From contig JAWPHD010000002.1 of assembly GCA_037043455.1 (NCBI GenBank), positions 992,001-1,056,000 on the forward strand: a DNA stretch of 64,000 bases. Direction: 5' to 3'. Below are positions 28,571 to 64,000 of this stretch, piece by piece. The position numbers and the translations under genes are program-made. Source of the stretch: Cyrtodaria siliqua (taxonomy: Eukaryota > Mollusca > Bivalvia > Adapedonta > Hiatellidae). The notes beneath the pieces are model-generated. The model was not told the DNA's origin. It saw only the letters and a list, made by a program, of their open reading frames with translations, and searched no databases. Each line of letters opens with the position of its first letter. Positions within the stretch are counted from its first letter, which is position 1.

Positions 28571-28596
28571 TGACGTCATAAGGGACGACCAATCAC
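28571..28596. promoter_or_regulatory. CRE-like site and CCAAT box inside the THAP transposon
   Basis: TGACGTCA at 28571-28578 and CCAATCA at about 28589 lie 130-160 bp upstream of the THAP frame's ATG. They would suit an internal promoter of the original transposon. Function today is unlikely. Confidence 0.3.
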
Positions 28597-28727
28597 ATCT
28601 TCCGTACAAACTACCTAATTTACATAATCAATTATGGCGCGTATCTATGTGTAAACAAACCGTTACTCTTGTTGGATGTCCATTTTTCTCATATAGCCTA
28701 AGTGTTTTAAACCCTGGAATATTATTG

Positions 28728-28905
28728 ATGTGTTCATTAAGCTTTTGTAGAAAAAGTAAACAGGAAGGAAGTGTAAGTCTACACACATTTCCATGTTGCC
28801 GTCACCAAACTAAATGGATTGAACTTGTTTTGCAAAACGGTGTGAAATGGAATTTTTCAGAGCACTCTCGCGTATGTTCGGACCATTTTACTGAGAAAGA
28901 TTTTT
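28728..28905 (+). pseudogene. THAP zinc-finger N-terminus of a Kolobok-like transposase, split by a LINE
   Basis: ATG at 28728 opens MCSLSFCRKSK. The C2-CH zinc ligands are visible: C2, C7 (C-x4-C), then C50 and H53 in RVCSDHF, 42 residues later, within the THAP range. FP at 21-22, W30 and the HF-T-x-x-D-F end are also THAP hallmarks. At KDF the frame runs into 25 T's of the LINE. The other side resumes FDDMHL at 30534 and meets a stop. The protein would have bound transposon ends. An in-frame leader upstream (from 28494) is open but shows no domain. Confidence 0.82.
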
Positions 28906-30521: not shown

Positions 30522-30535
30522 CTGAGAAAGATTTT

Positions 30536-41532: not shown

Positions 41533-43150
41533 AGCTCTACTGATCAGAGATCAGCAGAGCTTATGCCGTGGTGCGGAGTCCGTCGTCCGTCCGTCCGTCT
41601 GTCCGTCTGTCCGTCTGTCCGTCTGTCCGTCTGTCTGTCCGTAAACTTTTATTTGTAGCGACTTCACAGCTGAAACTACTGGATGGATATTCATGAAACT
41701 TTACAGAAATGTTGCCCATAAAGTCTAGTTGATCCTAGCAAAAATTCATGTTGATGTGAAATCCAAGATGGCCGCCAAAGCTAAAAATAGAGTTTTAAAA
41801 TACAAGTTTGTAGCGACTTCTTCTTGAAAACTATAAGTGATATTGATATGGGACTTTTTCTAAAATAATCAGTATGACATGATGTTGATCCTAGTCAAAA
41901 ATCGTTTTGATTCAACGTTAAACATGGCTGCCAGTGGCCATCTTTGTTTACATAGAGTTATATAGTAAAAACTTGTAGCGACTTCACAGCTGAAACTACT
42001 GGATGGATATTCATGAAACTTTACAGAAATGTTGCCCATAAAGTCTAGTTGATCCTAGCAAAAATTCATGTTGATGTGAAATCCAAGATGGCCGCCAAAG
42101 CTAAAAATAGAGTTTAAAATACAAGTTTGTAGCGACTTCTTCTTGAAAACTATAAGTGATATTGATATGGGACTTTTTCTAAAATGATCAGCATGACATG
42201 ATGTTGATCCTAGTCAAAAATCGTTTTGATTCAACGTTAAACATGGCTGCCAGCGGCCATCTTTGTTTACATAGAGTTATATAGTAAAAACTTGTAGCGA
42301 CTTCACAGCTGAAACTACTGGATGGATATTCATGAAACTTTACAGAAATGTTGCCCGTAAAGTCTAGTTGATCCTAGCAAAAATTCATGTTGATGTGAAA
42401 TCCAAGATGGCCGCCAAAGCTAAAAATAGAGTTTTAAAATACAAGTTTGTAGCGACTTCTTCTTGAAAACTATAAGTGATATTGATATGGGACTTTTTCT
42501 AAAATGATCAGCATGACATGATGTTGATCCTAGTCAAAAATCGTTTTGATTCAACGTTAAACATGGCTGCCAGTGGCCATCTTTGTTTACATAGAGTTAT
42601 ATAGTAAAAACTTGTAGCAACTACTTCTCTGAAACTACTCGGCAGATTGTCATGAAACTTTACAGGAATGTTGCTCTTGATGTCTGATTGATCCTAGAAA
42701 AATTTCAGGTCGGCCGGAAATTCAAGATGGCCGTCACAGCTAAAAATAGATTTTTAAAAAATAAGTTTGTAGCGACTTCTTCTTGAAAACTGTAAGTGAT
42801 ATTGATATGGTACTTTTTCTAAAATGATCAGCATTACATGATGTTGATCCTAGTCAAAAATCGTTTTGATTCAACATTAAACATGGCTGCCAGCGGCCAT
42901 CTTTGTTTACATAGAGTTATATAATGAAAACTTGTAGCGACTACTCCTCTGAAACTACTTGACGGATTTTCATGAAACTTCACAGGAATGTTGCTCTTGA
43001 TGTCTAATTGATCCTAGCAAAATTTCAGGTCGGCCGGAAATTCAAGATGGCCACCAAGGCTAAAAATGGATTTTCAAAAAACCAGTTTGTAGCGACTACT
43101 TCCTGAAATCAAAATCAATCAGTAGAGCTTCAAGGTCATTGACCTCTTGT
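41533..43150 (-). mobile_element. ACAAGAGG-type element with three near-identical 319-bp tandem units
   Basis: The terminal stem AGCTCTACTGATCAGAGATC / AGCAGAGCT is at 41533, and the opposite end GAGCTTCAAGGTCATTGACC followed by TCTTGT is at 43150. The units starting GTAGCGACTTCACAGCTG at 41655, 41975 and 42293 are almost identical to each other, whereas the next two are more diverged. Unit amplification is therefore recent and local. It includes a (TCCG/TCTG)n run at 41580-41640. Confidence 0.9.
41580..41640 (+). repeat. TCCG/TCTG tetranucleotide microsatellite
   Basis: Runs of GTCCGTC and GTCTGTC units, the standard subterminal stretch of ACAAGAGG-type elements but expanded here relative to the short versions at 43291 and 27781. 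Confidence 0.9.
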
Positions 43151-44386
43151 TAAAACTATGACGTCATAGTTCCATATTACTATATATGGAATATTGATAA
43201 ATATCATTTAAAATGAAGAAAATCACTGCAAATGAACGGGTTTTTAGCTCGACTGATCAGAGATCAGCAGAGCTTATGCCGTGGTGCGGCGTCCGTTGTC
43301 CGTCCGTCTGTCCGTAAACTTTTATTTGTAGCAACAACTTCTCTGAAACTGCTGGATGGATATTCATGAAACTTTACAGAAATGTTGCCCATAAAGTCTA
43401 GTTGATCCTAGCAAAAATTCATGTTGATGTGAAATCCAAGATGGCCGCCAAAGCTAAAAATAGAGTTTTAAAATACAAGTTTGTAGCGACTACTTCTTGA
43501 AAACTACAAGTGATATTGATATGGGACTTTTTCTAAAATGATCAGCATGACATGATGTTGATCCTTGTCAAAAATCGTTTTGATTCAATGTTAAACATGG
43601 CTGCCAGCGGCCATCTTTGTTTACATAGAGTTATATAGTAAAAACTTGTAGCGACTACTCCTCTGAAACTACTTGGCGGATTGTCATGAAACTTTACAGG
43701 AATGTTGCTCTTGATGTCTAATTGATCCTTGCAAAATTTCAGATCTGCCAGAAATTCAAGATGGCTGCCAAATCTAAAAATAGGTTTTTAAAATACAAGT
43801 TTGTAGCGACTACTTCTTGAAGACTCTAAGTGATATTGATATGGGACTTTTTGTAAAATGATCAGCATGACATGATGTTGGTCCTTGTCGAAAAACGTTT
43901 TGATTCGACGTTAAACATGGCTACCAGCGGCCATCTTTGTTTACCTAGAGTTATATAATGAAAACTTGTAGCGACTACTCCTCTGAAACTACTTGACGGA
44001 TTATCATGAAACTTCACAGGAATGTTGCTCAATGTCTAATTAATCCTAGCAAAATTTCAGGTTGGCCGGAAATTCAAGGTGGCCGCCCTGGCTAAAAAAA
44101 TTCAAAATACAAGTTTGTAGCGACTACTTCTTGAAAACTATAAGTGATATTGATATAGGACTTTTTCTAAAATGATCAGCATGACATGATGTTGGTCCTT
44201 GTCAAAAATCGTTTTGATTCGACGTTAAACATGGCTGCCAGATGCCATCTTTGTTTACATAGAGTTATATAGTAAAAACTTGTAGCAACTACTCCTCTGA
44301 AACTACTTGGCGGATTTTCATGAAACTTCACAGGAATTTTGCTCTTAATGTCTTATTGATCCTAGCAAAATTTCAGGTAGTTATGA

Positions 44387-45875: not shown

Positions 45876-46270
45876 CCACCAAAGCTAAAAATAGATTTTT
45901 AAAATACAAGTTTGCAGCGACTTCTTCTTGAAAACTATAAGTGATATTGATATGGGACTTTTTCTAAAATGATCAGCATGACATGATGTTGGTCCTTGTC
46001 AAAAATCGTTTTGATTCGATGTTAAAAATGGCTGTCAGCGGCCATCTTTGTTTACATAAGAGTTATATAATGAAAACTTGTAGCGACTACTCCTCTGAAA
46101 CTACTTGACGGATTTTCATGAAACTTCACAGGAATGTTTCTCTTGGTGTCTAATTGATCCTAGCAAAATTTCAGGTCGGCCGAAAATTCAAGATGGCCGC
46201 AACGGCTAAAAATAATTTTTCGAAAAACAAGTCTGTAGCGACTACTTCCTGAAATCAAAATCAACCAGTA

Positions 46271-46922
46271 GGGGGGCACTCCTCAGTTTCGCATGAATGT
46301 CCATGGTGTACATCAGAAAGAAATCAACTAAGCATCTTTTAGGTCCATTGATGGTCTTTATAATAATTATGAAGCACATGTTTGATGTTTTTTTCAGTTT
46401 TGATTACTTCTAACTTTATTTTGGTGTATTGGAATATGCATTCTTTGGGTTTTTTGGAGGCTATAAATAGAAAAATGTGAACCAATCAAAAACTTCCTAA
46501 AAGTAGTTAAAATGGCTGATTTTCACTGACGAGGAGATAAGCGTGGAATAACTTTTTAAAATGCCGGACTAGGTATGTAAAATTTAGCATTTCCTGATAT
46601 GCAAGAGCATTATGAGTGCAGACATGACCCTGATATGTGTAGGAAATTTTTTTTTTTTATTTATTGACATTTGAAATATTGCTAAAATTGCATTTTTAGC
46701 ATGTTTTAAGGGGTGGGGTAATCTTAAAGAAATGGGACTAAAGTTGTACAGAAAATGCTTTTTGATACTTTTATTTGGTATGGAAACATGGGTAATTTTA
46801 TTGTCTTCTAAGAAATGTATGACACAATGATGATGTGATTTATTTTTGCTCAAGGATTCAGGCTAAGAGCTTGTCAAGTGTTTGATGATTGAGAAATGTA
46901 CATTAAACTGTGGAGTGCCCCC
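46271..46922. mobile_element. TA-flanked MITE, TIR GGGGGCACTCC(T/A)CAGTTT
   Basis: The left GGGGGGCACTCCTCAGTTT and right AAACTGTGGAGTGCCCCC are inverted repeats. The disrupted host motif CAGTA|GAGCTTC is recovered if the element and one TA (or TAG) are removed. 652 bp, no coding frame. Consistent with a Tc1/mariner-type non-autonomous element. Confidence 0.85.
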
Positions 46923-46950
46923 TAGAGCTTCAAGGTCATTGGCCTCTTGT

Positions 46951-48270
46951 TAATTTTAATTTTTTTAATTTTTATATATTTCTACTGGCCAAGTTCGAAA
47001 ACCAGCCAGATCGGACCAGTAATGGCAGAGTTATGGCTCTTGATTTAGTTAAAAATGCTATATTTTGCCTCTTTAAGGCGATAGTCATTCGCTTCATTGA
47101 TGTTATAAGAGCCATATTAGCCAGTAGAGCGTCCACAGGCCCTCTTGGGCCTCTTGTATTTATTTTTCAAGTTTATGGCTCCTTTTCTCGGAATTACTTC
47201 AGATAATATATTGAAACTTCACACGTCTTCATAATCATTAGATAACATCATAGAGTCAGGTTCTATATTATATATACACAATTTAGGCCCCTTTTATACT
47301 TAGAGAATTTGGTTCAAGTATTGTATGTAAGCCTGTTTTTCAGAAACTTCACATAACGAATTGAAACTTCACACTTGTCTTCGGCGTTATGACAACATAT
47401 GTCATGTCTGTCGATGAGTTGTTAAGCAACATTCAATACCTCCATAAGCAGAACATAAATAGATCGAAAATGTCATTCCAAATTAGGTTATTTTTTGCAT
47501 ATAAATTTTGTATAAATACTCTTCAATTGTCTTTAAAGTTCTCCTGTCATGTTTTGTTTCATGAACATGTTTATGTTTATTTAAATCAAAATCGATACAC
47601 AACAATAAATATTTACAATTGAAACATTGCAATATATGTGAAAAGCGAGAATAAGATTTTATTTGATGACGTAGAAAACTTTAAAACAAGTAAATTAATC
47701 CACAGGTAAATGTATTTATCATGTATCTGGCAATCGTTCTGCAGCTATACAATTCAGATTAACCTCATTTCCCCGTGCAGTCACGCAGTGGTAAAAGAAG
47801 TATCTACGTCATGCAAATAATACTTATTTTTACATACAACATAGTAGCGGTTTTCAATATGTGTTCTCCCCGAGACTATCAAGAAATGTTCGTATGATGT
47901 TTAAGACTTAAATTTGTTAATTGATAAAACTACAGAAAGGCTGGCCATTCATCTTTAATAATATATTATAAATAAACAGTAACATATTATTATTAAACAG
48001 TAACATATGTTTACTTCTTGTCTAAATAAACTTTTTATAGTATTCTTTTTCAAAAAAACTTTCTCCAACTTTTTATTGTTGCTTTAATTTACAAGCTTTT
48101 AATTCTCTGTACAATTGATGTATGTTTTATATTGTCTCATATCTTTATACTGATACATGTAATACAATATAAGTTTTTCCATGTAAAATTAACAAGAATT
48201 TGTTGCCAAAACACTGGAAAATGTTTTGTGTAAAAATAATGTTTTGAATAGATGATATTTAATTTTACAG
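46951..48270. other. End of SNAPC2 intron 4
   Basis: 46960-47155 looks like a reverse fragment of a third ACAAGAGG-headed family (in reverse complement ACAAGAGGCCCAAGAGGGCC, TGTGGACGCTCTACTGGC). The remainder is A/T-rich, without recognisable features, up to the exon 5 acceptor TTTAATTTTACAG. Confidence 0.5.
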
Positions 48271-48339
48271 CATTGGTACGATATATCCAGAGATCTGGTT
48301 GAAGGAGAAAGTTTTGACTGTTCTGCTCACCTGTCTAAG
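48271..48339 (+). CDS. SNAPC2: SNAPC2-like exon 5, source of the first donor minisatellite
   Basis: The exon is 23 codons in phase 0: HWYDISRDLVEGESFDCS then AHLSK, ending CTAAG|GTATGT. W-Y-D-I aligns with the W-T-D-L block of SNAPC2. The last 28 nt of the exon and the first 20 or so of the intron are the unit of the array that follows. Reading through the donor stays open for four further 42-nt units and stops at 48529, so alternative donors at 48381, 48423, 48465 and 48507 would add 14, 28, 42 or 56 residues (VCVVWSHCFAHLSK-type repeats) without a frame change. The first donor gives the family-like protein. Confidence 0.85.
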
Positions 48340-49746
48340 GTATGTGTTGTGAGTAGTCATTGTTTTGCTCACCTGTCTAAGGTATATGTTGTGTGGAGTC
48401 ATTGTTTTGCTCACCTGTCTAAGGTATGGTTTGTGTGGAGTCATTGTTTTGCTCACCTGTCTAAGGTATGTGTTGTGTGGAGTCATTGTTTTGCTCACCT
48501 TTCTAAGGTATGTGTTGTGAGGAATCAGTGACTGTTCTCACCTGTCTGAGGTATGTGTAGTGTGACGTTTATTACTGTTCTTCTCACCTGTCTGAGGTAT
48601 GTGTTGTGTGGAGTCATTGTTTTGCTCACCTGTCTGAGTAAGTATGTGTTGTGAGGAATCAGTGACTGTACTGCTCACCTGTCTGAGGTATGTATAGTGT
48701 GCAGTCAGTGACTGTTCTGCTCACCTGTCTAAGGTATGTGTATTGAGGAATCAGTGACTGTTCTGCTCACCTGTCTAAGGTATGTGTAGTGTGGAGTCTG
48801 ACTGTTCTGCTCACTGTTGTGCTCACCTGTCTAAGGTATGTGTAGTGTGGAATCCGTGACTGTTCTGCTCACCTGTCTAAGGTAAGTGTTGTGTGGAGTC
48901 AGTGACTGTTCACCTCCCCTGTCTAAGGTATGTGTTGTGTGGAGTCAGTGACTGCTCTGCTCACCTAAGGTATGTGTTATGTGGAATCAGTGACTGTTCT
49001 GCTCACCTGTCTAAGGTATGTTTAGTGTGGAGTCGGTGACTGTTCTGCACACCTGTGTAACATCTGTGTTGTGAGGAATCAGTGACTGTTCTGCTTATCT
49101 GTCTGAGGTATATGTTGTGTGGAGTCGGTGTCTGTTCTGCTCTCCTGTCTAAGGTGTGTTGTGTGGAGTCAGTGACTGGTATGCTCCCCTGTCTGAGATA
49201 TGTTTTGTGGAGTCAGTGACAGTTCTGCTCATGTGTAGTGTGGAATCAGTTACTATTTCTCACCTGTCTAATGTATGTGTAGTGTGGAATCAGTGACTGT
49301 TCTGCTCACCTGTTTGAAGTATGTGTCGTGTGAAATCAGCTCACCTGTCTGAGGTATGTGTAGTGTGGAATCAGTGATTGTTCTGCTCACCTGTCTAAGG
49401 TATGTGTAGTGTGGAATCAGTGACTGTTCTGCTCACCTGTCTAAGGTATGTGTAGTGTGAAATCAGCTCACCTGTCTGAGGTATGTGTAGTGTGGAATAA
49501 GTGACTGTTCTGCTTACCTGTCTGAGGTATGTGTTGTGTGGAGTCAGTGACTGTGCTGCTCACCTGTCTAAGGTATGTGTAGTGTGGAATCAGTGACTGT
49601 TCTGCTCACCTGTTTGAGGTATGTGTAGTGTGAAATCAGCTTACCTGTCTGAGGTATGTTTAGTGTGGAATCAGTGACTGTTCTGCTCACCTGTCTAAGG
49701 TATGTGTAGTGTGGAATCAGTGACTGTTCTGCTCACCTGTCTAAGG

Positions 49747-50324
49747 CTTAACCACAGGTATTCGGGGAGTAGCTTAGACTTACACTTGAATTTTTCAGAA
49801 AGAAAAAAACAACATTTAAGTACTAATCAAACATTAAAAACATTTTTTTTTTTTAAATTTGTGTTTTAAATGTTTGATTAGTATTTAAATGATGTTGTTT
49901 TGTTTTTCTGAAAAATTCAAGTATAAGTCTAAGCTACTCCCGAATACCTGTGGACAAGGCCACAGAGCTGAAAACTGTTTAATCTTAGGTAGGTCCAGGT
50001 TTATTGGCTATAAATACAGTAAAACCCAGCTAATGCAACCGCTTACAATATACACATTTAGTGTTTTTTTTTACAGGTGATTGCTTAATGCAGCACTATA
50101 GTTTGCAGACAGCTATTAGAGGAGCTTTCTACAATACTATCATGCCGCATTAAGCTGCCACCTATCTTCTTGTAGGGGTCGCTTTAGAGGGGTTTTACTG
50201 TAGCAGTAAGCAGGAATTTTAGTCAAACGCATAATTATGCTATAAATATTGAGGCCCTAAATTTAGCGAAAATGTCCCTAAAAAGGCCCTAAATTTAGGT
50301 TTGAAAGGTCTGTATGAACCATGG
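49747..50324. mobile_element. Insert in the donor minisatellite: long hairpin plus MITE
   Basis: 49750-49962 is an imperfect palindrome (CCACAGGTATTCGGGGAGTA pairs with TACTCCCGAATACCTGTGG; the loop is the T/A run near 49845). 50017-50200 is a separate TA-flanked MITE. The array resumes at 50325 mid-unit (TGTGTGGAGTCAGTG). Confidence 0.75.
50017..50200. mobile_element. Short Tc1/mariner-type MITE, TIR CAGTAAAACC
   Basis: CAGTAAAACCCAGCTAATGC at the left and CGCTTTAGAGGGGTTTTACTG at the right are inverted, with TA on both flanks (50015-50016 and 50201-50202). 184 bp, non-coding. Confidence 0.8.
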
Positions 50325-53300
50325 CATTGTGTGGAGTCAGTGACTGTTCTGCTCACCTGTCTAAGGTATGTGTTGTGTGGAGTCAGTGTTCTACTCACCT
50401 GTCTGAGGTATGTGTAGTGTGGAATCAGTGACTGTTCTGCTCCCTTGTCTAAGGTATGTGTTATGTGGAGTCGGTGACTGTTCTGCTCACCTGTCTAAGG
50501 TATGTGTTGTGTGGAATCAGTGACTGTTCTGCTCACCTGTCTAAGGTAAGTGTTGTGTGGAGTCAGTGACTGTTCTTCTCACCTGTCTGAGGTATGTGTA
50601 GTGTGGAATCAGTGACTGTTCTGCTCCCCTGTCTACGGTATATGTTGTGTGGAATCAGTGACCGTTCTGCTCCCCTGTCTAAGGTATGTGTATTGTGGAA
50701 TCAGTGACTGTTCTGCTCACCTGTCTGAGGTATATGTAGTGTGGAATCAGTGACTGTTCTGCTCACCTGTCTGAGGTATGTGTAGTGTGGAGTCAGTGAC
50801 TGTTCTGCTCCCCTGTCTAAGGTATGTGTTGTGTGGAGTGAGTGACTGTTCTATTCACCTGTCTGAGGTATGTGTTGTGTGGAGTCTTGACGGTTCTGCT
50901 GGCTTTTGTCTGAGGTATGTGTAGTATGGAATCAGTGACTATTCTGCTCCCCTGTCTGATGTATGTGTTGTGTGGAGTCAGTGACTGTTCTGCTCACCTG
51001 TCGAGAGGTATGTGTTGTGTGGAGTCAGTGTTCTACTCACCTGTCTGAGGTATGTGTAGTGTGGAATCAGTGACTGTTCTGCTCCCTTGTCTAAGGTATG
51101 TGTTGTTTGGAGTCAGTGACTGTTCTGCTAACCTGTCTAAGGTATGTGTTGTGTGGAGTCAGTGACTGTTCTGCTCACCTGTCTAAGGTATGTGTTGTGT
51201 GAAATCAGTGACTGTTCTGCTCACCTGTCTGAGGTATGTGTAGTGTGGAATCAGTGACTGTTCTGCTCACCTGTCTGAGGTAAGTGTTGTGTGGAGTCAG
51301 TGACTGTTCTGCTCACCTGTCTGAGGTATGTGTAGTGTGGAATCAGTGACTGTTCTGCTTACCTGTCTGAGGTATGTGTAATGTGGAATCAGTGACTGTT
51401 CTGCTCACCTGTCTGAGGTATGTGTAGTGTGGAGTCAGTGACTGTTCTGCTCCCCTGTCTAAGGTATGTGTTGTGAGGAGTCAGTAAGTGTTCTGCTCAC
51501 CTGTCTGAGGTATGTGTTGTGTGGAGTCATTGAAGCTTCTGTTGCCCTGTCTGAGGTATGTGTAGTATGGAATCAGTGACTGTTCTGCTCCCCTGTCTGA
51601 GGTATATGTTGTGTGGAGTCATTGACGCGTCTGTTGCCCTGTCTGAGGTATGTGTAGTATGGAATCAGTGACTGTTCTGCTCCCCTGTCTAAGGTATGTG
51701 TTGTGTGGAGTCATTGACTGTTCTGCTCACCTGTCTAACATATGTGTTGTGTGGAGTCAGTGTTCTACTCACCTGTCTGAGGTATGTGTAGTGTGGAATC
51801 AGTGACTGTTCTGCTTCCTTGTCTAAGGTATATGTTGTGTGGAGTCATTGACGCTTCTGTTGCCCTATCTGAGGTATGTGTAGTATGGAATCAGTGACTG
51901 TTCTGCTCCCCTGTCTAAGGTATGTGTTGTGTGGAGTCAGTGACTGTTCTAATCACCTGTCTAAGGTAAGTGTTGTGTGGAGTCAGTGACTGTTCTTCTT
52001 ACCTGTCTGAGGTATGTGTAGTGTGGAATCAGTGACTGTTCTGCTCCCCTGTCTAAGGTATATGTTGTGTGGAATCAGTGACTGTTCTGCTCCCCTGTCT
52101 AAGGTATGTGTTGTGTGGAATCAGTGACTGTTCTGCTCCCCTGTCTAAGGTATGTGTAGTGTGGAATCAGTGACTGTTCTGCTCACCTGTCTGAGGTATA
52201 TGTAGTGTGGAATCAGTGACTGTTCTGCTCACCTGTCTGAGGTATGTGTAGTGTGGAGTCGGTGACTGTTCTGCTCCCCTGTCTGAGGTATGTGTAGTGT
52301 GGAGTCGGTGTCTGTTCTGCTCCCCTGTCTAAGGTATGTGTTGTGTGGAGTGAGTGACTGTTCTATTCACCTGTCTGAGGTATGTGTTGTGTGGAGGCAT
52401 TGACCATTCTGCTGCCCTGTCTGAGGTATGTGTAGTATGGAATCAGTGACTGTTCTGCTCCCCTGTCTAAGGTATGTGTTGTGTGGAGTCAGTGACTGTT
52501 CTGCTCACCTGTCGTGAGGTATGTGTTGTGTGGAGTCAGTGTTCTACTCATCTGTCTGAGGTATGTGTAGTGTGGAATCAGTGACTGTTCTGCTCCCTTG
52601 TCTAAGGTATGTGTTGTGTGGAGTCAGTGACTGTTCTGCTCACCTGTCTAAGGTATGTGTTGTGTGGAATCAGTGACTGTTCTGCTCACCTTTCTAAGGT
52701 AAGTGCTGTGTGGAGTCAGTGACTGTTCTGCTCACCTGTCTGAGGTATGTGTAGTGTGGAATCAGTGACTGTTCTGCTCACCTGTCTAAGGTAAGTGTTG
52801 AGTGGAGTCAGTGACTGTTCTGCTCACCTGTCTGACGTATGTGTAGTGTGGAATCAGTGACTGTTCTGCTTACCTGTCTGAGGTATGTGTAATGTGGAAT
52901 CAGTGACTGTTCTGCTCACCTGTCTGAGGTATGTGTAGTGTGGAGTCAGTGACTGTTCTGCTCCCCTGTCTAAGGTATGTGTTGTGAGGAGTCAGTGAGT
53001 GTTCTGCTCACCTGTCTGAGGTATGTGTTGTGTGGAGTCATTGAAGCTTCTGTTGCCCTGTCTGAGGTATGTGTAGTATGGAATCAGTGACTGTTCTGCT
53101 CCCCTGTCTGAGGTATATGTTGTGTGGAGTCATTGACACTTCTGTTGCCCTGTCTGAGGTATGTGTAGTATGGAATCAGTGACTGTTCTGCTCCCCTGTC
53201 TAAGGTATGTGTTGTGTGGAGTCATTGACTGTTCTGCTCACCTGTCTAACATATGTGTTGTGTGGAGTCAGTGTTCTACTCACCTGTCTGAGGTATGTGT

Positions 53301-56300
53301 AGTGTGGAATCATTGACTGTTCTGCTTCCTTGTCTAAGGTATGTGTTGTGTGGAGTCAGTGACTGTTCTAATCACCTGTCTAAGGTAAGTGTTGTGTGGA
53401 GTCAGTGACTGTTCTTCTTACCTGTCTGAGGTATGTGTAGTGTGGAATCAGTGACTGTTCTGCTCCCCTGTCTAAGGTATATGTTGTGTGGAATCATTGA
53501 CTGTTCTGCTCCCCTGTCTAAGGTATGTGTTGTGTGGAATCAGTGACTGTTCTGCTCCCCTGTCTAAGGTATGTGTAGTGTGGAATCAGTGACTGTTCTG
53601 CTCACCTGTCTGAGGTATATGTAGTGTAAAATCAGTGACTGTTCTGCTCACCTGTCTGAGGTATGTGTAGTGTGAAGTCGGTGACTGTTCTGCTCTCCAG
53701 TCTGAGGTATGTGTAGTGTGGAGTCGGTGTCTGTTCTGCTCCCCTGTCTAAGGTATGTGTTGTGTGGAGTCAGTGACTGTTCTGTTCACCTGTATGAGGT
53801 ATGTGTAGTGTGGAATCAGTGACTGTTCTGCTCACCTGTCTGAGATATGTGTTGTGTGGAACCAGTGGCTGTTCTGCTCACCTGTCTAAGGTATGTGTAG
53901 TGTGAAATCAGTGACTGTTCTGCTCACCTGTCTGAGGTATGTGTTGTATGGAGTCAGTGACTGTTCTGCTCACCTGTATGAGGTATGTGTAGTGTGGAAT
54001 CAGTGACTGTTCTGCTCACCTGTCTAAGGTAAGTGTTGTGTGAAATCAGTGACTGTTCTGTTCACCTGTCTGAGATTTGTGTTGTGTGGAATCTGTGACT
54101 GTTCTGCTCACCTGTCTGAGGCATGTGCTGTGTGGAGTCCGTGACTGTTCTGCTCCCCTGTCTAAGGTATGTGTTGTGTGGAGTCAGTGACTGTTCTGCT
54201 CACCTGTCGTGAGGTATGTGTTGTGTGGAGTCAGTGTTCTACTCATCTGTCTGAGGTATGTGTAATGTGGAATCAGTGACTGTTCTGCTCCCTTGTCTAA
54301 GGTATGTGTTGTGTGGAGTCAGTGACTGTTTTGCTCACCTGTCTAAGGTATGTGTTGTGTGGAATCAGTGACTGTTCTGCTCACCTTTCTAAGGTAAGTG
54401 CTGTGTGGAGTCAGCGACTGTTCTGCTCACCTGTCTGAGGTATGTGTAGTGTGGAATCAGTGAGTGTTCTGCTCACCTGTCTAAGGTAAGTGTTGTGTGG
54501 AGTCATTGACTGTTCTGCTCACCTGTCTGAGGTATGTGTAGTGTGGAATCAGTGACCGTTCTGCTCACCTGTCTAAGGTAAGTGTTGTGTGGAGGCAGTG
54601 ACTGTTCTGCTCACCTGTCTAAGGTTTGTGTTGTGCGGAGTCTGTGACTGTTCTGCTCCCCTGTCTGAGGTATGTGTTGTGTGGAATCAATGACTTCTGC
54701 TCCCCTGTCTGAGGTATGTGTAGTGCGGAATCAATGACTGTCCTGCTCACCTGTCTAAGGTAAGTGTTGTGTGGAGTCAGTGACTGTTCTGCTCACCTGT
54801 CTGAGGTAAGTGTAGTGTGGAGTCAGTGACTGTTCTGTTCACCTGTATGAGGTATGTGTAGTGTGGAATCAGTGACTGTTCTGCTCACCTGTCTGAGATA
54901 TGTGTTGTGTGGAACCAGTGGCTGTTCTGCTCACATGTCTAAGGTATGTGTAGTGTGAAATCAGTGACTGTTCTGCTCACCTGTCTGAGGTATGTGTTGT
55001 ATGGAGTCAGTGACTGTTCTGCTCACCTGTATGAGGTATGTGTAGTGTGGAATCAGTGACTGTTCTGCTCACCTGTCTAAGGTAAGTGTTGTGTGAAATC
55101 AGTGACTGTTCTGTTCACCTGTCTGAGATTTGTGTTGTGTGGAATCAGTGACTGTTCTGCTCACCTGTCTGAGGCATGTGCTGTGTGGAGTCGGTGACTG
55201 TTCTGCTCACCTGTCTGAGGTAAGTGTAGTGTGGAGTCAGTGAATGTTCTGTTCACCTGTATGATGTATGTGTTGTATGGAATCAGTGACTGTTCTGCTC
55301 ACCTGTCTAAGGTATGTGTGGTGTGGAATCAGTGACTGTTCTGCTCACCTGTCTGAGGTATGTGTTGTATGGAGTCAGTGACTGTTCTGCTCACCTGTAT
55401 GAGGTATTTGTAGTGTGGAATCAGTGACTGTTCTGCTCACCTGTCTGAGATATGTGTTGTGTGGAATCAGTGACTGTTCTGCTCACCTGTCTAAGGTATG
55501 TGTTGTGTGGAGCTAGTGACTGTTCTGCTCACCTGTCTGAGGTATGTGTTGTATAGAGTCAGTGACTGTTCTGCTCACCTGTCTTAGGTAAGTGTTCTGT
55601 GGAGGCAGTGACTGTTCTGCTCACCTGTCTAATGTATGTTGTGTGGAGTCAGTGACTGTTCTGCTTGCCTGTCTATGTATGTTTAGTGTGGAGTTAGTAA
55701 CTGTTCTGCTCACCTGTCTGAGGTATGTGTTGTATAGAGTCAGTGACTGTTCTGCTTACCTGTCTGAGGTGTGTGTTGTGTGAAGTCAGTGACTGTTCTG
55801 CTACCCTGTCTGAGGTATGTGTTGTGAGGAATCAGTGACTGTACTGCTCACCTGTCTAAGGTAAGTGTTGTGTGGAGGCAGTGACTGTTCTGCTCACCTG
55901 TCTAATGTATGTTGTGTGCAGTCAGTGACTGTTCTGCTTTCCTGTCTAAGGTATGTTTAGTGTGGAGTTAGTAACTGTTCTGCTCACCTGTCTAAGGTAT
56001 GTGTAGTGTGGAGTCAGTGACTGTTCTGCTCACCTGTCTAAGGTATGTGTTGTGAGGAATCAGTGACTGTTCTGCTCACCTGTCTGAGGTATGTGTAGTG
56101 TGGTGTCAGTGACTGTTCTACTCACCTATCTAAGGTATGTTTAGTGTGGAGTTAGTAACTGTTCTGCTCACCTGTCTAAGGTATGTTTAGTGTGGAGTTA
56201 GTAACTGTTCTGCTCACCTGTCTAAGGTATGTGTAGTGTGGAGTCCGTGACTGTTCTGCTCACCTGTCTGAGGTATGTGTATTGTGGTGTCAGTGACTGT

Positions 56301-56570
56301 TCTACTCACCTATCTAAGGTATGTTTAGTGTGGAGTTAGTAACTGTTCTGCTCACCTGTCTAAGGTATGTTTAGTGTGGAGTTAGTAACTGTTCTGCTCA
56401 CCTGTCTAAGGTATGTGTAGTGTGGAGTCAGTGACTGTTCTGCTCACCTGTCTGAGGTGTGTGTTGTATGGTGAGTGACTATTCTGCTCACCTGTCTAAG
56501 GTAAGTGTTGTGTGGAGTCAGCGACTATTCTGCTCACCTGTCTAAGGTATGTGTTGTGTTGAATCAGTGA

Positions 56571-57747
56571 TTCAACACAACTGTTGTTGATGATGCTTTT
56601 GATAAAATCCGGCAGTGCTTTATCCGTGTTCAGCAGAAAAAACCAAAGAATTGATGTAATGTTTGTCAAGATTTTTGTTTTTACCATGTTTTGATATTTT
56701 AGTGGGTGTTTTATCTAGCAAAGTTTGAATTTATATATTCGATGATCTGGAAGCTCCTAGATGTTTTTGACTTTGCAAAACAGTAGACTGCTATAGTATC
56801 ACTCTATTCTGTTTCGTGTGTGTTTTTACTGGTAGATTTTATGGATTATACAATTATATTACATATTTGTCTGTGATTTGTATAGGAAATACTGGGAATA
56901 GAAAAGCTATATCTACTTGTTTGCTCTACTGGGAAATATCTCCCAGTGGGAGATATTTCCCCCAAATGACGTTCCGATTGTTTTACAGACGTCGTCGTCA
57001 AATTCCGCCACTAGGAAATAACGATTACGGAAATTAACGAAGAGTTCCGGTTCCACTTGTTTTGTTTGTATGGCGTAACATCTTGGATGACGCAACGTCA
57101 TCTTGGCGTTCTCGTGCAAACTGGTGTAAAAAGGCGTGAATCATTCGAAATATTAATAAAATATCATTTTAAAGTATGTAATATATAGTTTAATAACCAC
57201 TGTTTTTGAGATACTGAAAATATCTACCTCGATAGAGAAATGGCCCCAATACAAGAACTCGTGCTCCGCACTCGTTCTTATATCGGGGCCATTTCTCTAC
57301 CTCGGTATTTCCCGTATCTCAAAAACACTGGATATTAAACTCTATATACAGTTGTGGTAACAGCCAGTTTGTTTTCCGGAATGTTTAAAGTTGAACTTGT
57401 TTACATTTGCATATGCTTGAAACTTAAAAGTTTTGAGTGAAAAGAAAATTGCTTTTGTATCTGGTACCAATGTCTGGAATTGGAGTAATATGCAATTTGA
57501 ATTGAGTGTAATATGCATGGTGCTTATCTGGGGCACTGTACATGACTAAGTGTATATTGTTTTTTAGGATTATATTTTTTCTTCAAATTGACTTATTGCC
57601 CATTATTGCATGTGCACAGTTTGTGTCTCAAGTTCTTAAAAGTTGCTACCGGTATTCAATTTGTACGCTGTATCTGAAGTTTATGAAATAACTATTAAAA
57701 CACCATTTTACATAAATCTGAGTGTCTTGTATGCATATGTGTTTCAG
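56571..57747. other. Intron 5 after the array, with two palindromes
   Basis: GGGAAATATCTCCCAGTGGG and the following AGATATTTCCC (56930-56962) form a perfect short hairpin. A much larger one is at 57177-57352. Apart from these the sequence is unremarkable, ending at the exon 6 acceptor TGTGTTTCAG. Confidence 0.6.
57177..57352. repeat. Palindrome with arms of about 80 bp
   Basis: GTTTTTGAGATACTGAAAAT, ACCTCGATAGAGAAATGGCC and AAGAACTCGTGCTCCGCA pair with GCACTCGTTCTTATATCGGG, GGCCATTTCTCTACCTCGG and CCCGTATCTCAAAAAC. The outer arms extend to AGTTTAATAACCACTG / GGATATTAAACT. Such a structure would form a strong RNA hairpin in the intron. It is probably a foldback-type element. Confidence 0.85.
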
Positions 57748-57895
57748 GTGATGTCGGTAATTAGTAACTTAGAAGAGTTTCCAACAAAGAAAATTAAGGG
57801 CCATTCACCTCCAAACTACAAAGTCATATACCGGTACTTGTCACAAATACTGCAGGGAGACAGAAGGGATGACATTGATCAACTTCCACCTCTAG
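57748..57895 (+). CDS. SNAPC2: SNAPC2-like exon 6 (family core), source of the second donor minisatellite
   Basis: 49 codons plus one base. It encodes VMSVISNLEEFPTKKIK, GHSPPNYKVIYRYLSQIL and QGDRRDDIDQLPPL, ending CCTCTAG|GTTGGT in phase 1. I-Y-R-Y-L-S is the counterpart of I-Y-K-Y-L-S in SNAPC2 and, with exon 7, identifies the family. The donor GTTGGT is weak compared with the other exons. The last 19 nt of the exon (GATCAACTTCCACCTCTAG) are echoed in each unit of the array downstream. Confidence 0.92.
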
Positions 57896-59560
57896 GTTGG
57901 TTCTCTCTCATATATACATGTAGATCAACAAACCACTAGGTTGGTCCTCCCTCATAATTATATACATTACATGTAGATCAGCAAACCACTACATTGGTCC
58001 TCTCTCATATATACATTACATGTAGATCAGCAAACCACTAGGTTGGTCCTCTCTCATATATACGTTACATGTAGATCAGCAAACCACTACGTTGGTCCTC
58101 TCTCATATATACATTACATGTAGATCAACAAACCACTAGGTTGGTCCTCCCTCATATATACATGTAGATCAACCAACCAATAGGTTGGTCCGCTCTCATA
58201 TATATATGTAGATCAACAAATCACTAGGTTGGTCCTCTCTCATATATACATTACATGTAGATCAAAAAACCACTAGGTTGGTTCTCCCTCATATATACAT
58301 TACATGTAGATCCAGGGGTGTAAAATACCACTCGACTGCTCGCCATGGCGACCAGAATGTCACGGAGGTCGAGTCAAAAATCCTAAATACTAGACCGATC
58401 GGTGGATTAGTTTTATTGTGGTGAAGAAAAAAAGATCAATCTTTTCAGTTTCAAAACAAGCGCGTGTTGGTAACTAGGTCAACAGACTGTATTATCGTAA
58501 TGTTAACATCGAAAGTTTACTGAATACACTTCACGTAAATCAATCTGGCAGGTGCGCATGAAATTTTACTCGGATATTTATGTTTACATCATATATGAGT
58601 CGGCGTGTGAAATATTTATGTCTACACCATAGATAACCACTAGGTTGGTCCTCTCTCGTATATACATTACATGTAGATAACCACTAGGTTGGTCCTCTCT
58701 CGTATATACATTACATGTAGATAACCACTAGGTTGGTCCTCTCTCGTCTATACATTACATGTAGATAACCACTAGGTTGGTCCTCTCTTGTATACATTAC
58801 ATGTAGATAACCACTAGGTTGGTCCTCTCTCGTCTATACATTACATGTAGATAACCACTAGGTTGGTCCTCTCTTGTATTCATTACATGTAGATAACCAC
58901 TAGGTTGGTTCTCTCTTGTATATACATTACATGTAGATAACCACTAGGTTGGTCCTCTCTCGTATACATTACATGTAGATAACCACTAGGTTGGTCCTCT
59001 CTCGTATACATTACATGTAGATAACCACTAGGTTGGTCCTCTCTCGTATATACATTACATGTAGATAACCACTAGGTTGTTCCTCTCTCGTATATACATT
59101 ACATGTAGGTAACCACTAGGTTGGTCCTCTCTCGTATATACATTACATGTAGATAACCACTAGGTTGGTCCTCTCTCGTATATACATTACATGTAGATAA
59201 CCACTAGGTTGTTCCTCTCTCGTATATACATTACATGTAGATAACCACTAGGTTGGTTCTCTCTCGTATACATTACAAGTAGATAACCACTAGGTTGGTC
59301 CTCTCTCGTATATACATTACATGTAGATAACCACTAGGTTGGTTCTCTCTCATATATACATTACTTGTAGGTCAACAAACCACTAGGTTGGTCGTCTCTC
59401 GTATATACATTACCTGTAGATAACAAACCACTAGGTTGGTTCTCTCTCATATATACATTACTTGTAGGTCAACAAACCACTAGGTTGGTTCTTTCTCGTA
59501 TATACATTACCTGTAGATAACAAACCACTAGGTTGGTTCTTTCTCGTATATACATTACGA
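57896..59560 (+). repeat. Minisatellite copied from the exon 6 splice donor (about 30 units)
   Basis: Each unit has GATCAACAAACCACTAG or GATAACCACTAG followed by GTTGGTCCTCTCTC, TATATACATTACATGTA. This mirrors the exon 6 end GATCAACTTCCACCTCTAG and the intron start GTTGGTTCTCTCTC. The first nine junctions are spaced about 45-60 bp apart (CATATATAC type), the later ones about 43-44 bp (CGTATATAC type). An insert lies at 58312-58629. Confidence 0.93.
58312..58629. mobile_element. 318-bp insert in the second minisatellite, TAGAT duplicated
   Basis: TAGAT occurs on both sides (58307-58311 and 58630-58634). The ends CCAGGGGTGTAAAATACC and TCTACACCA share only a short inverted GGTGTA. A 5-bp duplication again suggests a hAT-like non-autonomous element, though weakly. 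Confidence 0.55.
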
Positions 59561-59619
59561 TGGTGAAATACCAAATGAAATGAGGGTTAAAGTCATGTTA
59601 ACACATCATGTTAGGTTAT

Positions 59620-59700
59620 ACTGAGGCTACATTTCCCCTCTGGGTCAGCTCTAAATAACCTATAATTTGTTTATGAGCCATTAGACAACATTCAGTTGCA
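59620..59700 (+). mobile_element. SINE family 2 tail fragment before exon 7
   Basis: TTTCCCCTCTGGGTCAGC, AACCTATAATTTGTTTATG and AGCCATTAGACAACATTC match the 3-prime parts at 26520 and 37200. It ends about 40 nt before the exon 7 acceptor. Confidence 0.6.
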
Positions 59701-59741
59701 TTCCTTGCAGCCCAAATAACATTGTGGTGGTCATTTTTCAG

Positions 59742-59906
59742 AGAGTGCCATAGTCCTGGACCTTCTCCACAGTCTGATGGATGTCCTCTCTCTGTCCGAC
59801 ACAACGGTGCAGCGTAACGTCATGTGCTGGAAACATCGGCTGATTGACGAGAGGGATAAAAACAAACATCCGTATCCGGACAACCTCAGAAGAGCTGCTG
59901 AAAATG
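59742..59906 (+). CDS. SNAPC2: SNAPC2-like exon 7 (ESAIVLDLLHSL core)
   Basis: Acceptor CATTTTTCAG. The exon completes Glu and continues SAIVLDLLHSLMDVLSLSD, then TTVQRNVMCWKHRLIDERDK and NKHPYPDNLRRAAEN, ending in phase 1 at AATG|GTAGGC. E-S-A-I-V-L-D-L-L-x-S-L is almost identical to the central SNAPC2 motif E-S-A-V-V-L-D-L-L-M-S-L and is the strongest evidence for the gene's identity. No donor repeat follows this exon. Confidence 0.95.
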
Positions 59907-60583
59907 GTAGGCAGTTATATTACAGACCTCAAGAATAAATTATAGGATCTGGTGAACTCTACACACATTGCTGTCCAGTCTATATAACACCAATATCAGC
60001 TTTCATAAAGTTTTTACTTTTAAATGTTGTTTCTTAGTTGACCACCCATAACATGTCCATCAAACATGTTCTTGGTGTAAATTTGGTATTAAATTTAAGA
60101 CTGCGACTTAATATATGTAAAAAAACTACTATCTGTCTTCTTTATTTTAACATTGTCGACAGTTTCCCTTTTTCCAATTCAAGTCAAATTTCCCCCTTTT
60201 AAAGGGCCCTGAACCCCTTCACCCAAAAGTAAAAAAAACAACTGCATAGTAAAAGTTCAGTGAAGATTTGTAGTCAGGAGTGATGCTGAACTATTTGATG
60301 ACCATTCTTGTAAAGTTTATGTTAATAAGATTAAGGTAAGATTATTTACACACAGAAACCCAATAAGCATATACAGTCCAACCATTAAGAGACCAGTGTT
60401 GCTCTTCCTTGAGTGGTCTCTTAATACAGGTTTGACTATGTGCTGTATAGCCCTGTTTAAACGACCCCGTTTAGGGAGAGGTATTTTTTTAAACTAGAAC
60501 TCAGGTAAGGCTACTGGCAAGTGTATTTTTTCTTGACCTCATAATATGTAATAAGAAAATATATATATATATATATATATAAA
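59907..60583. other. Intron 7, first part
   Basis: Unremarkable except for an (AT)n microsatellite at about 60559-60580. GACCAGTGTTGC and GAGTGGTCTCTTAATAC words near 60390-60425 resemble one end of a MITE, but no partner end was seen. Confidence 0.4.
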
Positions 60584-61640
60584 ACAAGATGGCCCTGAAT
60601 CGATCACCTGAGGATCTTTGCAATGATGAACAAATTGTCCTCTCGCAAATGCTGATCAAAGATGTTTTTAAGTATTTCCTTACGTAAAAACATGCAAAAT
60701 CTCTACATACAAACTTTGGGCCCAGGGGTTGCAGCCATCTTTGACCACAGGGACTTCAAATGAGCAAACTTGATAGACCAGGGTTTAGCGATCATTAATA
60801 ATAATAAAGAACAAGAGGGCCTGTGGATGCTCTACAAGCTAAAATGGTTCTTATATCATGGGGTTTCATCATTAAATTCCTTTCAATACCTTTTTACAAA
60901 TGCAAAACACAACAACACCCTCAATTGAAATTTATTCTCACAACTCCATGCTAACAATTTAAAAGAAGATTTTTTAAGTTTTCCTATGCAAACTTTTTAT
61001 ATACAAACTTTAGAAAAATTAACAAAAGAAAAAACGCATCTAAACAGGAAAAATTAATAAAAAAATGAAGAATTAAAAAAAAAGAAAAAAGTTTACCTCC
61101 AGTGGGATTTGAACCCACTGACCTAGCTTCCCAGTGTACAAGAAATAATTCAAAGATTTTTCTATGGCGGCCATCTTGGATATCACGTTTAACTTATTTT
61201 ATTTAACACATTTGGAAAACATTCATATAAGGATCATCCATGTGAAGTTTGGTCAAAATTGACCAAGCTATTTCTGAGAAGACGGTTGTTTGAAACTTCA
61301 TCACAATGTTACTTGGGAGGGCCCCTCTCAGATTTGTGTTTTTCATGGCCGGCAGTCATCCAAGATTGCAGCCATGGCTAAAACTAGGTCAAATTTAAGC
61401 AATTTTCAAACGCCATCTCCGACGAAACCACTTATTTCATTCTGGTGAAATACCATTAACATGTTCCTTGGGTTGGCCTCTATCAAGTTTGTGTTTTTCG
61501 TTATCGTCGAATAATCAAAATGGCCGCCACGGCGACTCAACAAAGTTTACATAGAGTTATATAGGAAAACGTTAAAAATGACATCTTCATGTTAGCGTGG
61601 GGTTATTAGAAGGTATATTTATACTATTTAAACCTACCTT
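60584..61640 (+). mobile_element. ACAAGATGG/ACAAGAGGG-type element fragments
   Basis: Two starts are present: ACAAGATGGCCCTGAATCG at 60584, resembling the 4999 start, and ACAAGAGGGCCTGTGGATGC at 60811, a third head type. Internal words shared with 6840-6960 include GGCGGCCATCTTGGAT and GGATCATCCATGTGAAGTTT. Later parts (AAAATGGCCGCCACGGCGAC, AACATAGAGTTATATAGG) resemble the ACAAGAGG family. No intact terminal stem was found, so these are truncated or chimeric copies. Confidence 0.6.
61096..61136 (-). tRNA. tRNA 3-prime-half-like fragment (T arm) within a repeat
   Basis: On the minus strand, AGGTCAGTGGGTTCAAATCC followed by CACTGGAGG forms a canonical T arm and B-box. No matching 5-prime half (D arm) was found at tRNA distance, so this is a tRNA-derived pseudogene piece rather than a tRNA gene. 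Confidence 0.4.
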
Positions 61641-61680
61641 GTAGAGCTGGAATCAATTATTCTTTTATTATCTGTTTAAG

Positions 61681-61791
61681 ATTTTACTGAGTTCATCCAG
61701 CTGGAAGAAGAAAAGGAGGATTCCAAACTTAACTTGGAGTTGGAGAGACATAGAATTGCCACTGAAAAACCTCCTTCACCAACGGAGGAAG
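61681..61791 (+). CDS. SNAPC2: SNAPC2-like exon 8, source of the third donor minisatellite
   Basis: Acceptor ATTATCTGTTTAAG. The exon completes Asp and encodes FTEFIQLEEEKEDSKLNLEL then ERHRIATEKPPSPTEE, an acidic, probably helical stretch, ending in phase 1 at GAAG|GTAAGG, a strong donor. Reading through would hit TAA after five codons. The 41-bp array that follows contains the same junction in every unit. Confidence 0.87.
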
Positions 61792-63150
61792 GTAAGGGTA
61801 AATAATTAGTCCCCTACTGCTACCCTGGAAAGGTAAGGGTAAATAATTCATTCCCTTACTGCTACCCTGGGAAGGTAAGGGTAAATAATCCGTTCCCTTA
61901 CTGCTACCCTGGGAAGGTAAGGGTAAATAATTAGTCCCCTACTGCTACCATGGGAAGGTAAGGGTAAATAATCAGTCCCCTACTGCTACCATGGGAAGTT
62001 AAGGATATAAAATAATTAGTCCCCTACTACTACCCTGGGAAGGTAAGGGTAAATAATCAGTCCCCTACTGCTACCCTGGGAAGTTACAGATATAAAATAA
62101 TTAGTCCCCTACTGCTACCCTGGGAAGGTAAGGGTAAATAATCAGTCCCCTACTGCTACCCTGGGAAGGTAAGGATATAAAATAATCAGTCCCCTACTGC
62201 TACCCTGGGAAGGTAAGGATATAAAATAATTAGTCGCCTACTGCTACCCTGGAAAGGTAAGGGTAAATAATTAGTCCCCTACTGCTACCCTGGGAAGGTA
62301 AGGGTAAATAATTAGTCCCCTACTGCTACCCTGGAAAGGTAAGGGTAAATAATCAGTCCCCTACTGCTACCATGGAAAGGTAAGGGTAAATAATTAGTCC
62401 CCTATTGCTACCCTGGGAAGGTAAGGGTAAATAATTAGTCCCCTGCTGCTACCCTGGAAAGGTAAGGGTAAATAATCAGTCCCCTACTGCTACCCTGGGA
62501 AGGTAAGGATATAAAATAATTAGTCCCCTGCTGCTACCCTGGAAAGGTAAGGGTAAATAATTAGTCGCCTACTGCTACCCTGGGAAGGTAAGGGTAAATA
62601 ATCAGTCCCCTACTGCTACCCTGGGAAGGTAAGGATATAAAATAATTAGTCCCCTGCTGCTACCCTGGAAAGGTAAGGGTAAATAATTAGTCGCCTACTG
62701 CTACCCTGGGAAGGTAAGGGTAAATAATCAGTCCCCTACTGCTACCCTGGGAAGGTAAGGATATAAAATAATTAGTCCCCTGCTGCTACCCTGGAAAGGT
62801 AAGGGTAAATAATTAGTCGCCTACTGCTACCCTGGGAAGGTAAGGGTAAATAATTAGTCGCCTACTGCTACCCTGGGAAGGTAAGGGTAAATAATCAGTC
62901 CCCTGCTGCTACCCTGGAAAGGTAAGGGTAAATAATCAGTCCCCTGCTGCTACCCTGGGAAGGTAAGGGTATATAATCAGTCCCCTGCTGCTACCCTGGA
63001 AAGGTAAGGGTAAATAATCAGTCCCCTGCTGCTACCCTGGGAAGGTAAGGGTAAATAATCAGTCCCCTGCTGCTACCCTGGAAAGGTAAGGGTAAATAAT
63101 CAGTCCCCTGCTGCTACCCTAGGAAGGTAAGGGTATATAATTAATCCCCT
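61792..63150 (+). repeat. Minisatellite copied from the exon 8 splice donor (about 33 units of 41 bp)
   Basis: The unit is GGTAAGGGTAAATAATCAGT then CCCCTACTGCTACCCTGGRAA. It spans AAG|GTAAGG, identical to the exon 8 donor, with a pyrimidine-rich lead CCCCTACTGCTACCCTGG comparable with the exon end CCTCCTTCACCAACGGAGG. Two unit variants alternate: GTAAGGGTAAATAAT and GTAAGGATATAAAATAAT. Three-unit blocks recur, for example around 62450-62800. Confidence 0.95.
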
Positions 63151-63800
63151 ACTGCTTAACCCCTATCAATCTATCTGCAAAACCTGGGTTCTGAAATTGA
63201 CTTAATGCCTCGAGATCTGTAAATTTTTGACATTTGCCATATGTAATAGGGTATTAAGGCCCTTTTGCATGAGTGCTTGTTTCCTGCTCGGATCCAAGAT
63301 GGCTACCTGGTGGCCATTTTCTTTTTCCGTCTTTCAGAAATGGATCAGATGGATCATTTGATTGTGGATTACCACCCTGAGATATGTTCATGAGATTTAA
63401 TTGTGGATTACCACCCTGAGATATGTTCTTGACATTTATATAGATACTGGATCTGATATGTTTTAAACAGAATTATCCGTCTTTTTTCCAGCTCACCTGT
63501 GCCAAACGCTCGAATGAGCTATTAGTCGATTAACAATTGCTTTAAACAATCTCTTCTCAGAAACAGCTTGATATATTTTGACCAGACTTCACATGGATAC
63601 TCCTTAGGTCCGCCAAAGTGGTCACAGTTTTACATAGGAAAACCTTTAAAAGGTCTATTTTGCATGTAGCATATTAAAGCTTACGGTCTTCTACCTGGGT
63701 TTTGCCACGTGCCCCTTCCCACTTTGGAGAGAAAAGACCCTGGTTTGATAAAACAGTGATCATGCCACAATTAATTTCTGTTGTCTCTTTATAAATACAG
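63151..63800. other. End of intron 8
   Basis: A short direct repeat (GATTGTGGATTACCACCC, GAGATATGTTC at about 63360 and 63402) is present. AAGATGGCTACCTGGTGGCC and CTCTTCTCAGAAACAGCTTG are words of the ACAAGAGGG-type repeats. No exon was recognised before the acceptor ATAAATACAG at 63800. Confidence 0.45.
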
Positions 63801-64000
63801 TTGAAGAACCAGTGATCAGCAAGTCTACCTATGTATCTCAGCCATATTCATCAGGCACGGCACCTCAGCCGTATAATTATTTGTCACCCACAGCACCTCG
63901 GCCATCTTCATCAGGAACACAAACTGTCAGGCGTCACAAACCAGGTCGGAGGAAGAAAGACGAGAAACCCGAGACCCCTACCACGGAAATAGTCATGGTC
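63801..64000 (+). CDS. SNAPC2: SNAPC2-like exon 9 (partial, runs off the window)
   Basis: The exon completes Val and remains open for 66 codons to the window end. It is rich in Pro, Ser and Thr (VSQPYSSGTAPQPYN, LSPTAPRPSSSGTQT) and then basic (RRHKPGRRKKDEK, a plausible nuclear localisation signal). The C-terminal half of SNAPC2 is also Pro/Ser-rich and poorly conserved, so similarity fades here. The stop codon and 3-prime UTR lie outside the window. Confidence 0.85.

Follow-up and report, generated by a model that had tools for sequence, protein, structure and literature searches.

Minisatellites that repeat an exon-intron junction occupy the beginning of three introns of a SNAPC2-like gene of the bivalve mollusc Cyrtodaria siliqua, in a window of 64,000 nucleotides (bases 992001-1056000 of contig C2) from a 2.88-Gb assembly; positions given without a contig are those of this window. 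With a probability of about 0.72, these arrays are mirages, a class of structure described from amphioxus, that would have grown from short tandem duplications across existing junctions as part of a genome-wide process in introns. No harm is predicted from them, as the 5' splice site (donor) next to each exon can still be used. An earlier note on this stretch had stated that tandem arrays begin at three donors of one gene, and the array starts given by Tandem Repeats Finder (TRF), at 48315, 57888 and 61787, bear this out.

Three donor-spanning arrays in a SNAPC2-like gene

The three minisatellites straddle three of the six located SNAPC2-like donors, starting 25, 8 and 5 bases before donors at 48340, 57896 and 61792, respectively. 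The exon ends that bear arrays are consistent with the reading frame, and besides these three the window contains no array with a period of 20-110 and at least four copies. Counted by wrap-around alignment, with only units that fill at least 60% of the columns admitted, array 1 holds 169 units of 46 bp, array 2 holds 30 units of 44-49 bp, and array 3 holds 33 units of 41 bp. The GT of the donor is intact in 157 of 169, 29 of 30 and 31 of 33 of these units, that is, in 217 of 232 altogether, in agreement with the more than 200 donor copies claimed previously.

The accompanying claim, that the unit includes the end of the exon, stands for array 1, in which 25 exon bases are identical between unit and exon end, and for array 2, in which about 14 of 19 bases agree in a gapped alignment made by eye. 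It barely stands for array 3, which shares only GGAAG with its exon end, starts at the junction and hardly includes the exon, its alignment scarcely reaching beyond a bare AGGT. The intronic part of array 1 starts with four units (48340-48507) of 42 nt that are open and in frame (VCVVWSHCFAHLSK type), and the other haplotype, described below, has three of them.

A single insertion splits array 1, at 49747-50326, and another splits array 2, at 58313-58629. The insertion in array 1, which contains a foldback element, looks recent because array 1 of the other haplotype is uninterrupted. The distal part of array 1 is more uniform (86% matches and 1% indels by TRF) than the portion at 48315-49231 (77% and 9%). 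A perfect palindrome of 14 bp lies at the distal end of this array (56553-56581), as if the array had been ended by a fold-back copy.

Exon boundaries of the gene were set from reading frame and splice sites and corrected by hand (Table 1). When stitched together, the plus-strand exons match Pfam PF11035 (SNAPC2) with 31.4 bits, the gathering score being 25.5, and the match covers residues 71-132 of the stitched protein, spanning the joint between the exons at 57748-57895 and 59742-59906. The piece around the exon at 48271-48339 has no Pfam match when taken alone; human SNAPC2 probably aligns without a gap over the end of that exon. Among 442 candidates in a protein search, none was a homologue at an E value of 0.001, the PDB yielded none either, and an Rfam scan of 46000-64000 gave no match. 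No second or third exon could be located, so that the numbers 5, 6 and 8 once assigned to the array-bearing exons are not established.

Table 1. Exons, junction arrays and insertions of the SNAPC2-like gene in the window (a slash marks the exon-intron junction)
Feature	Position	Strand	Unit or boundary	Basis or remark
SNAPC2-like exon, coding part	25862-25929	+		
SNAPC2-like exon	39367-39392	+		
SNAPC2-like exon	48271-48339	+	HWYDISRDLVEGESFDCSAHLSK	Frame and AG/GT sites; final 25 bases recur in the array 1 unit as its exonic part
Array 1, donor-proximal part	48315-49746	+	Unit of about 46 bp, TGACTGTTCTGCTCACCTGTCTAAG/GTATGTG...	TRF, wrap-around alignment and donor spacing; first copy overlaps the exon
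Insertion splitting array 1	49747-50326	.	Foldback element, arms at about 49747-49842 and 49862-49958	
Array 1, distal part	50327-56570	+	46-bp unit, 136 copies	TRF
SNAPC2-like exon	57748-57895	+	Donor CTAG/GTTGGT	Exon end resembles the array 2 unit
Array 2, proximal part	57888-58312	+	49-bp unit, ...GATCAACAAACCACTAG/GTTGGTCC...	
Insertion splitting array 2	58313-58629	.	317 bp	
Array 2, distal part	58630-59558	+	44-bp unit	
SNAPC2-like exon	59742-59906	+	Donor gtaggc	Without array
SNAPC2-like exon	61681-61791	+	Donor GGAAG/GTAAGG	
Array 3	61787-63156	+	41-bp unit, GTAAGGGTAAATAATTAGTCCCCTACTGCTACCCTGGGAAG	
Next SNAPC2-like exon, start only	63801-64000	+		Runs past the window end

Local origin and a second haplotype

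The units of the three arrays are mutually unrelated. In searches of the genome, all reported matches fell at the locus on C2 or on contig C10431: 94 of 94 for the array 1 junction with its first units (mostly starting at query base 45, which is 48315), 28 of 28 for array 2 and 25 of 25 for array 3; the search scores the best candidates only (3, 4 and 2, respectively) and skips very common words, and rare distant relatives of a unit could escape it. Contig C10431 is collinear throughout the window and in the sequence on either side, with 94-98% identity in most flanking blocks; it carries the same gene and is read as the second haplotype.

All three arrays differ in length between the two. Array 1 measures 1432 and 6244 bp (7676 bp in total) in the window and an uninterrupted 3623 bp on C10431; array 2, 425 and 929 bp versus 429 and 1643 bp; and array 3, 1370 bp versus 1581 bp. 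On C10431, array 2 is split at the matching place by 316 bp (C10431:53839-54154). Close to the exon, almost every unit has its counterpart in the other haplotype, and the differences in copy number fall deeper in the arrays. Divergence is greatest in the exon-proximal quarter for arrays 1 and 2, not for array 3. This pattern is ordinary minisatellite turnover. Because the units differ between arrays, because the reported matches of each unit are confined to the locus and its second haplotype, and because the lengths differ there, the view that the arrays are independent local expansions, unstable in length, is supported, and with it the earlier statement that three separate expansions took place.

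The same evidence bears on two other explanations. That a mobile repeat or an introner landed at the junctions is hard to believe: repeats abound in the window, where TRF rows cover 27%, and a foldback element sits within array 1, but the units of arrays 1 and 2 hold the gene's own exon sequence, and none of the three units has, among the reported matches, any match elsewhere in the genome, let alone the presence of one sequence at many unrelated loci by which introners are recognised. Long tandem arrays are generally poorly assembled, yet an assembly artefact is scarcely credible when all three arrays are found on two contigs with diverged, non-identical units, and when short two-copy cases are present as well.

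Other repeats of the window include arrays with units of 140-330 bp at 5294-6645, 41653-44378 and further places, which are probably transposon-derived satellites. An open frame of 406 codons on the minus strand (29365-30585) reaches 27.1 bits against zf-RVT, with a cut-off of 27.5, and is likely a remnant of a long interspersed nuclear element. A THAP domain (28.4 bits) was found in a plus-strand open frame at 28443-28943.

Junction arrays elsewhere in the genome

The next gene downstream, a GPHR-like gene on the minus strand (Pfam PF12430, 49.5 bits), has a donor-spanning array that repeats its own exon end. A 21-bp array, also on the minus strand, adjoins a GPHR-like acceptor (L020, C2:1074835-1075397), and its unit is without AG.

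Myosin-head exons were used as a sample not chosen for arrays. From 79 rows, 44 were taken, mostly the better-scoring ones and mostly one per apparent allelic pair, and 43 of these have a usable donor; L090 was excluded as no donor was seen, and the donors of L070, L083, L091 and L094 were placed by eye. The junction is repeated at five of the 43 donors, in two copies up to six or more. These are L059, with an 80-bp unit (the best PDB match of its exon is myosin VIIa); L064, a degenerate array with longer units; L068, with 2.3 copies of a 29-bp unit (3 mismatches in 29); L079, whose 55-bp unit includes 41 exon bases; and L087, with two copies of a 58-bp unit that differ by 1 mismatch in 58. 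Right up to its donor, the exon end of L087 can be aligned with myosin Va with no gap, and 19 of the 22 residues are identical. A conserved muscle-myosin exon of this genome finds its best PDB matches in 3i5f and the 1dfk/1b7t group, which are squid and scallop myosins and fit a mollusc.

Two junction arrays each are found in what appear to be single myosin genes on C183 (L079, L087 and L096) and C2769 (L059 and L064), which suggests that genes with several mirages, such as SNAPC2, are not unique in this genome. An array may also span an acceptor, as in L073 (C1291), where the units are 54 bp (18 codons) long and the last of them are open in the frame of the exon; by script, one acceptor in 23 has a spanning array, the script's best AG for L073 lying just inside the unit.

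Other arrays lie near junctions. In L065, L074, L086, L089 and L096, arrays start about 10-65 bp into the myosin introns, so that the sample often has minisatellites close to where an intron begins. A gene with a UCH domain holds, in one of its introns, a large sense array of GGTAAGT-rich 53-bp units (C2 ~1119709-1124100; L053, L054) that begins about 190 bp after the donor and is not visibly junction-derived. An array with donor-like units also lies at C2 209206-211900, where no exon was recognised by eye in the preceding stretch.

Donors compared with the intron background

In a repeat-rich genome, a donor-specific mechanism should not be claimed from arrays anchored at donors until they have been compared with the intron background. 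The 24 bases centred on a position were sought downstream, for donors and for intron and exon positions of the same stretches, under six settings. Recurrence was found for 4-5 of 43 donors and for 9.3-13.2% of intron positions. L064 was counted in four settings (5/43; 95% interval 3.9-25%) and lost in the two with a short span and thresholds of 19 and 20 (4/43; 2.6-22%), intervals with which a two-fold excess at donors is still compatible. Of exon positions 40-70 bases upstream, none of 301 recurred; a first run over 24-70 bases gave 8 of 609, and shuffled stretches gave none of 860. Donors appear to behave much like the rest of the intron, exons being apparently protected, and the special anchoring to donors that the earlier note proposed is unsupported.

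Several results weigh against this reading. Where a stretch has no donor match, the rate for intron positions falls to 6.5-9.4%, and the 43 donors are not all independent, as L076 and L078 look allelic and L067/L068 and L088/L093 are close copies. The five matches at myosin donors lie on 3 of 21 contigs (two on C2769, two on C183 and one on C5244), a clustering with a permutation p of 0.035, and the share of located donors with arrays in SNAPC2 (3 of 6), a gene picked for its arrays, differs from that in the myosin sample (5 of 43) with a Fisher p of 0.047. A uniform rate would thus not account for everything, and the SNAPC2 share together with the clustering gives a hint that genes differ in how readily they acquire junction arrays. 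Genome-wide, spaced triplets of AGGTAAG number 20,162, compared with 8,329 for the reversed word (2.4-fold), whereas those of AGGTATG number 24,176, compared with 21,763 (1.1-fold); this test counts copies, not arrays, and a few large arrays could dominate it. Within the arrays, minor variants are less frequent at donor columns in all six array/haplotype sets, not significantly so (p 0.06-0.46), and the donor window has the third lowest entropy of 46, 49 and 41 windows in arrays 1, 2 and 3, respectively, in a ranking for which the array 2 unit still contained mostly-gap columns.

It has to be considered, then, that donors are hot spots, some feature of the 5' splice site, such as R-loops or pausing at intron starts, triggering the duplication, perhaps in certain genes only. 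The arrays at half of the located SNAPC2 donors, the clustering of matches by gene and the 2.4-fold excess of AGGTAAG triplets speak for such a trigger. It is nevertheless unlikely, given that the donor rate hardly departs from the 9-13% found for intron positions, that AGGTATG triplets are just 1.1 times as frequent as their control, and that an acceptor-spanning array also exists (1 of 23 acceptors). Under the preferred reading, duplication across junctions as one part of a general intron process, a donor-specific trigger would be unnecessary.

Donor strength and predicted splicing

When GT sites are scored by their pairing with U1, 131, 29 and 30 downstream sites in arrays 1, 2 and 3, respectively, equal or surpass the true donor, and 85, 5 and 0 pair strictly better. 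A distal donor of array 2 or 3 would bring in a stop at once, while in array 1 the first four copies of the window, or three of the other haplotype, are in frame and open before stops appear. Splicing is predicted to use the exon-proximal donor only. Since the later donors are no weaker and yet bring in stops, the choice of donor is predicted to rest on position rather than on sequence.

SNAPC2 is part of the complex that drives small nuclear RNA genes, and the arrays might be kept for a function, dense docking of U1 tuning splicing or protecting long introns, perhaps within a SNAPC2 feedback loop. A GT kept in 217 of 232 donor copies, the many downstream sites that pair with U1 no worse than the real donor, and donor columns that are less variable than the rest, though not significantly, are in line with this idea. 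However, the GPHR-like and myosin genes carry the same structure, and with the conservation of the donor lacking significance, a retained function is very unlikely.

Relation to known systems

The view that such a gene belongs to no described class was wrong. The available text of two reports describes mirages in amphioxus, in the globin genes BflGb6 and BflGb9, in Adh3 and in TnC, and likens repeats of PGBD5 to them (PMC3087553, PMC3902484). According to the same text, regular splicing is undisturbed, haplotypes differ, and somatic length instability has been reported for the Adh3 mirage (PMC3087553, PMC3902484). As far as that text goes, the arrays of C. siliqua resemble amphioxus mirages in being minisatellite-type tandem duplications of an exon-intron boundary whose units keep AG/GT, in a copy number that varies by haplotype (here in all three arrays), and in affecting donor and acceptor boundaries alike (here the acceptor of L073). 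The edge units of amphioxus mirages escape homogenisation; a similar sign, the high divergence of the exon-proximal quarter, is seen in arrays 1 and 2 and is missing from array 3. As regards the boundary itself, the exon contributes 25 bases to array 1, about 19 to array 2 and only 5 to array 3. Unlike in amphioxus, the arrays occur in a mollusc, reach kilobases with up to 169 units per intron, and are three in one gene; moreover, regular splicing, which the available text reports for amphioxus, is here predicted from the sequence.

In the human interferon-induced gene 6-16 (IFI6/G1P3), a minisatellite with a unit of about 12 nt reportedly supplies multiple splice donors, a finding attributed to Turri et al. 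in 1995. The arrays here are likewise minisatellites made of donor sites. They are unlike the human one, whose title speaks of alternative donors in the transcript, in having longer and more numerous units.

Under the Rogers model, introns are gained when segments with AGGT are duplicated in tandem; one paper illustrates this by ATP2A1, by genes of fission yeast in which a 24-bp sequence with AGGT is repeated, and by potato RdRp (PMC4974935). In the present case a tandem duplication again carries splice signals, but it is existing introns that are enlarged, none of them shown to be new. A 27-bp intronic minisatellite is on record for a mollusc, in TSSK1 of abalone, with no junction described in the portion available (PMC6905558). 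The available portions of reports on earthworm metallothionein (PMC12783039) and chicken MUC2 (PMC3549977) contain nothing of the junction-array kind. No report of mirages in molluscs was found in the open-access literature searched, which is weak evidence of absence.

Proposed origin and implications

Four steps may account for the mirages. In the first, a segment of about 29-80 bp over the exon end and the intron start is duplicated in place, as is shown by apparent intermediates, in particular the two-copy myosin case with 1 mismatch in 58. In the second, the added copies would come to lie downstream of the first donor and, if that donor is used, would count as intron, which selection does not remove; duplications within exons would be removed, leaving array edges that stop at coding sequence. 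In the third, slippage or unequal exchange would alter the number of copies, chiefly at a distance from the edge next to the exon, and a change in length is seen directly between the haplotypes. In the fourth, splicing would favour the exon-proximal donor, though later copies are equally strong or stronger, because later donors bring stops (in arrays 2 and 3, and in array 1 beyond its first copies).

Tentatively, about one donor in ten may be, or be on the way to becoming, a mirage, at stages from two copies to 169 units, and mirages may be a standing feature across the genome in which introns grow and exon ends are worked on; this broader picture is possible and somewhat short of probable. 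In the literature searched, mirages are known from amphioxus, gene by gene, and here the junction is repeated at roughly a tenth of the sampled mollusc donors. What remains of interest is the scale, a phylum that is likely new for mirages, and their apparent commonness in one genome. With several stages and, for SNAPC2, two haplotypes at hand, there is material on the birth of splice-site duplications, on their tolerance and amplification, and possibly on intron gain. Some 150 near-identical donors in series, in nearly equal local context, offer a test, set up by nature, of donor choice by the spliceosome. If the reading given here is true, the spliceosome would pick its donor by position among up to about 150 near-identical sites, and the in-frame 42-nt units of array 1 would feed new alternative exon ends.

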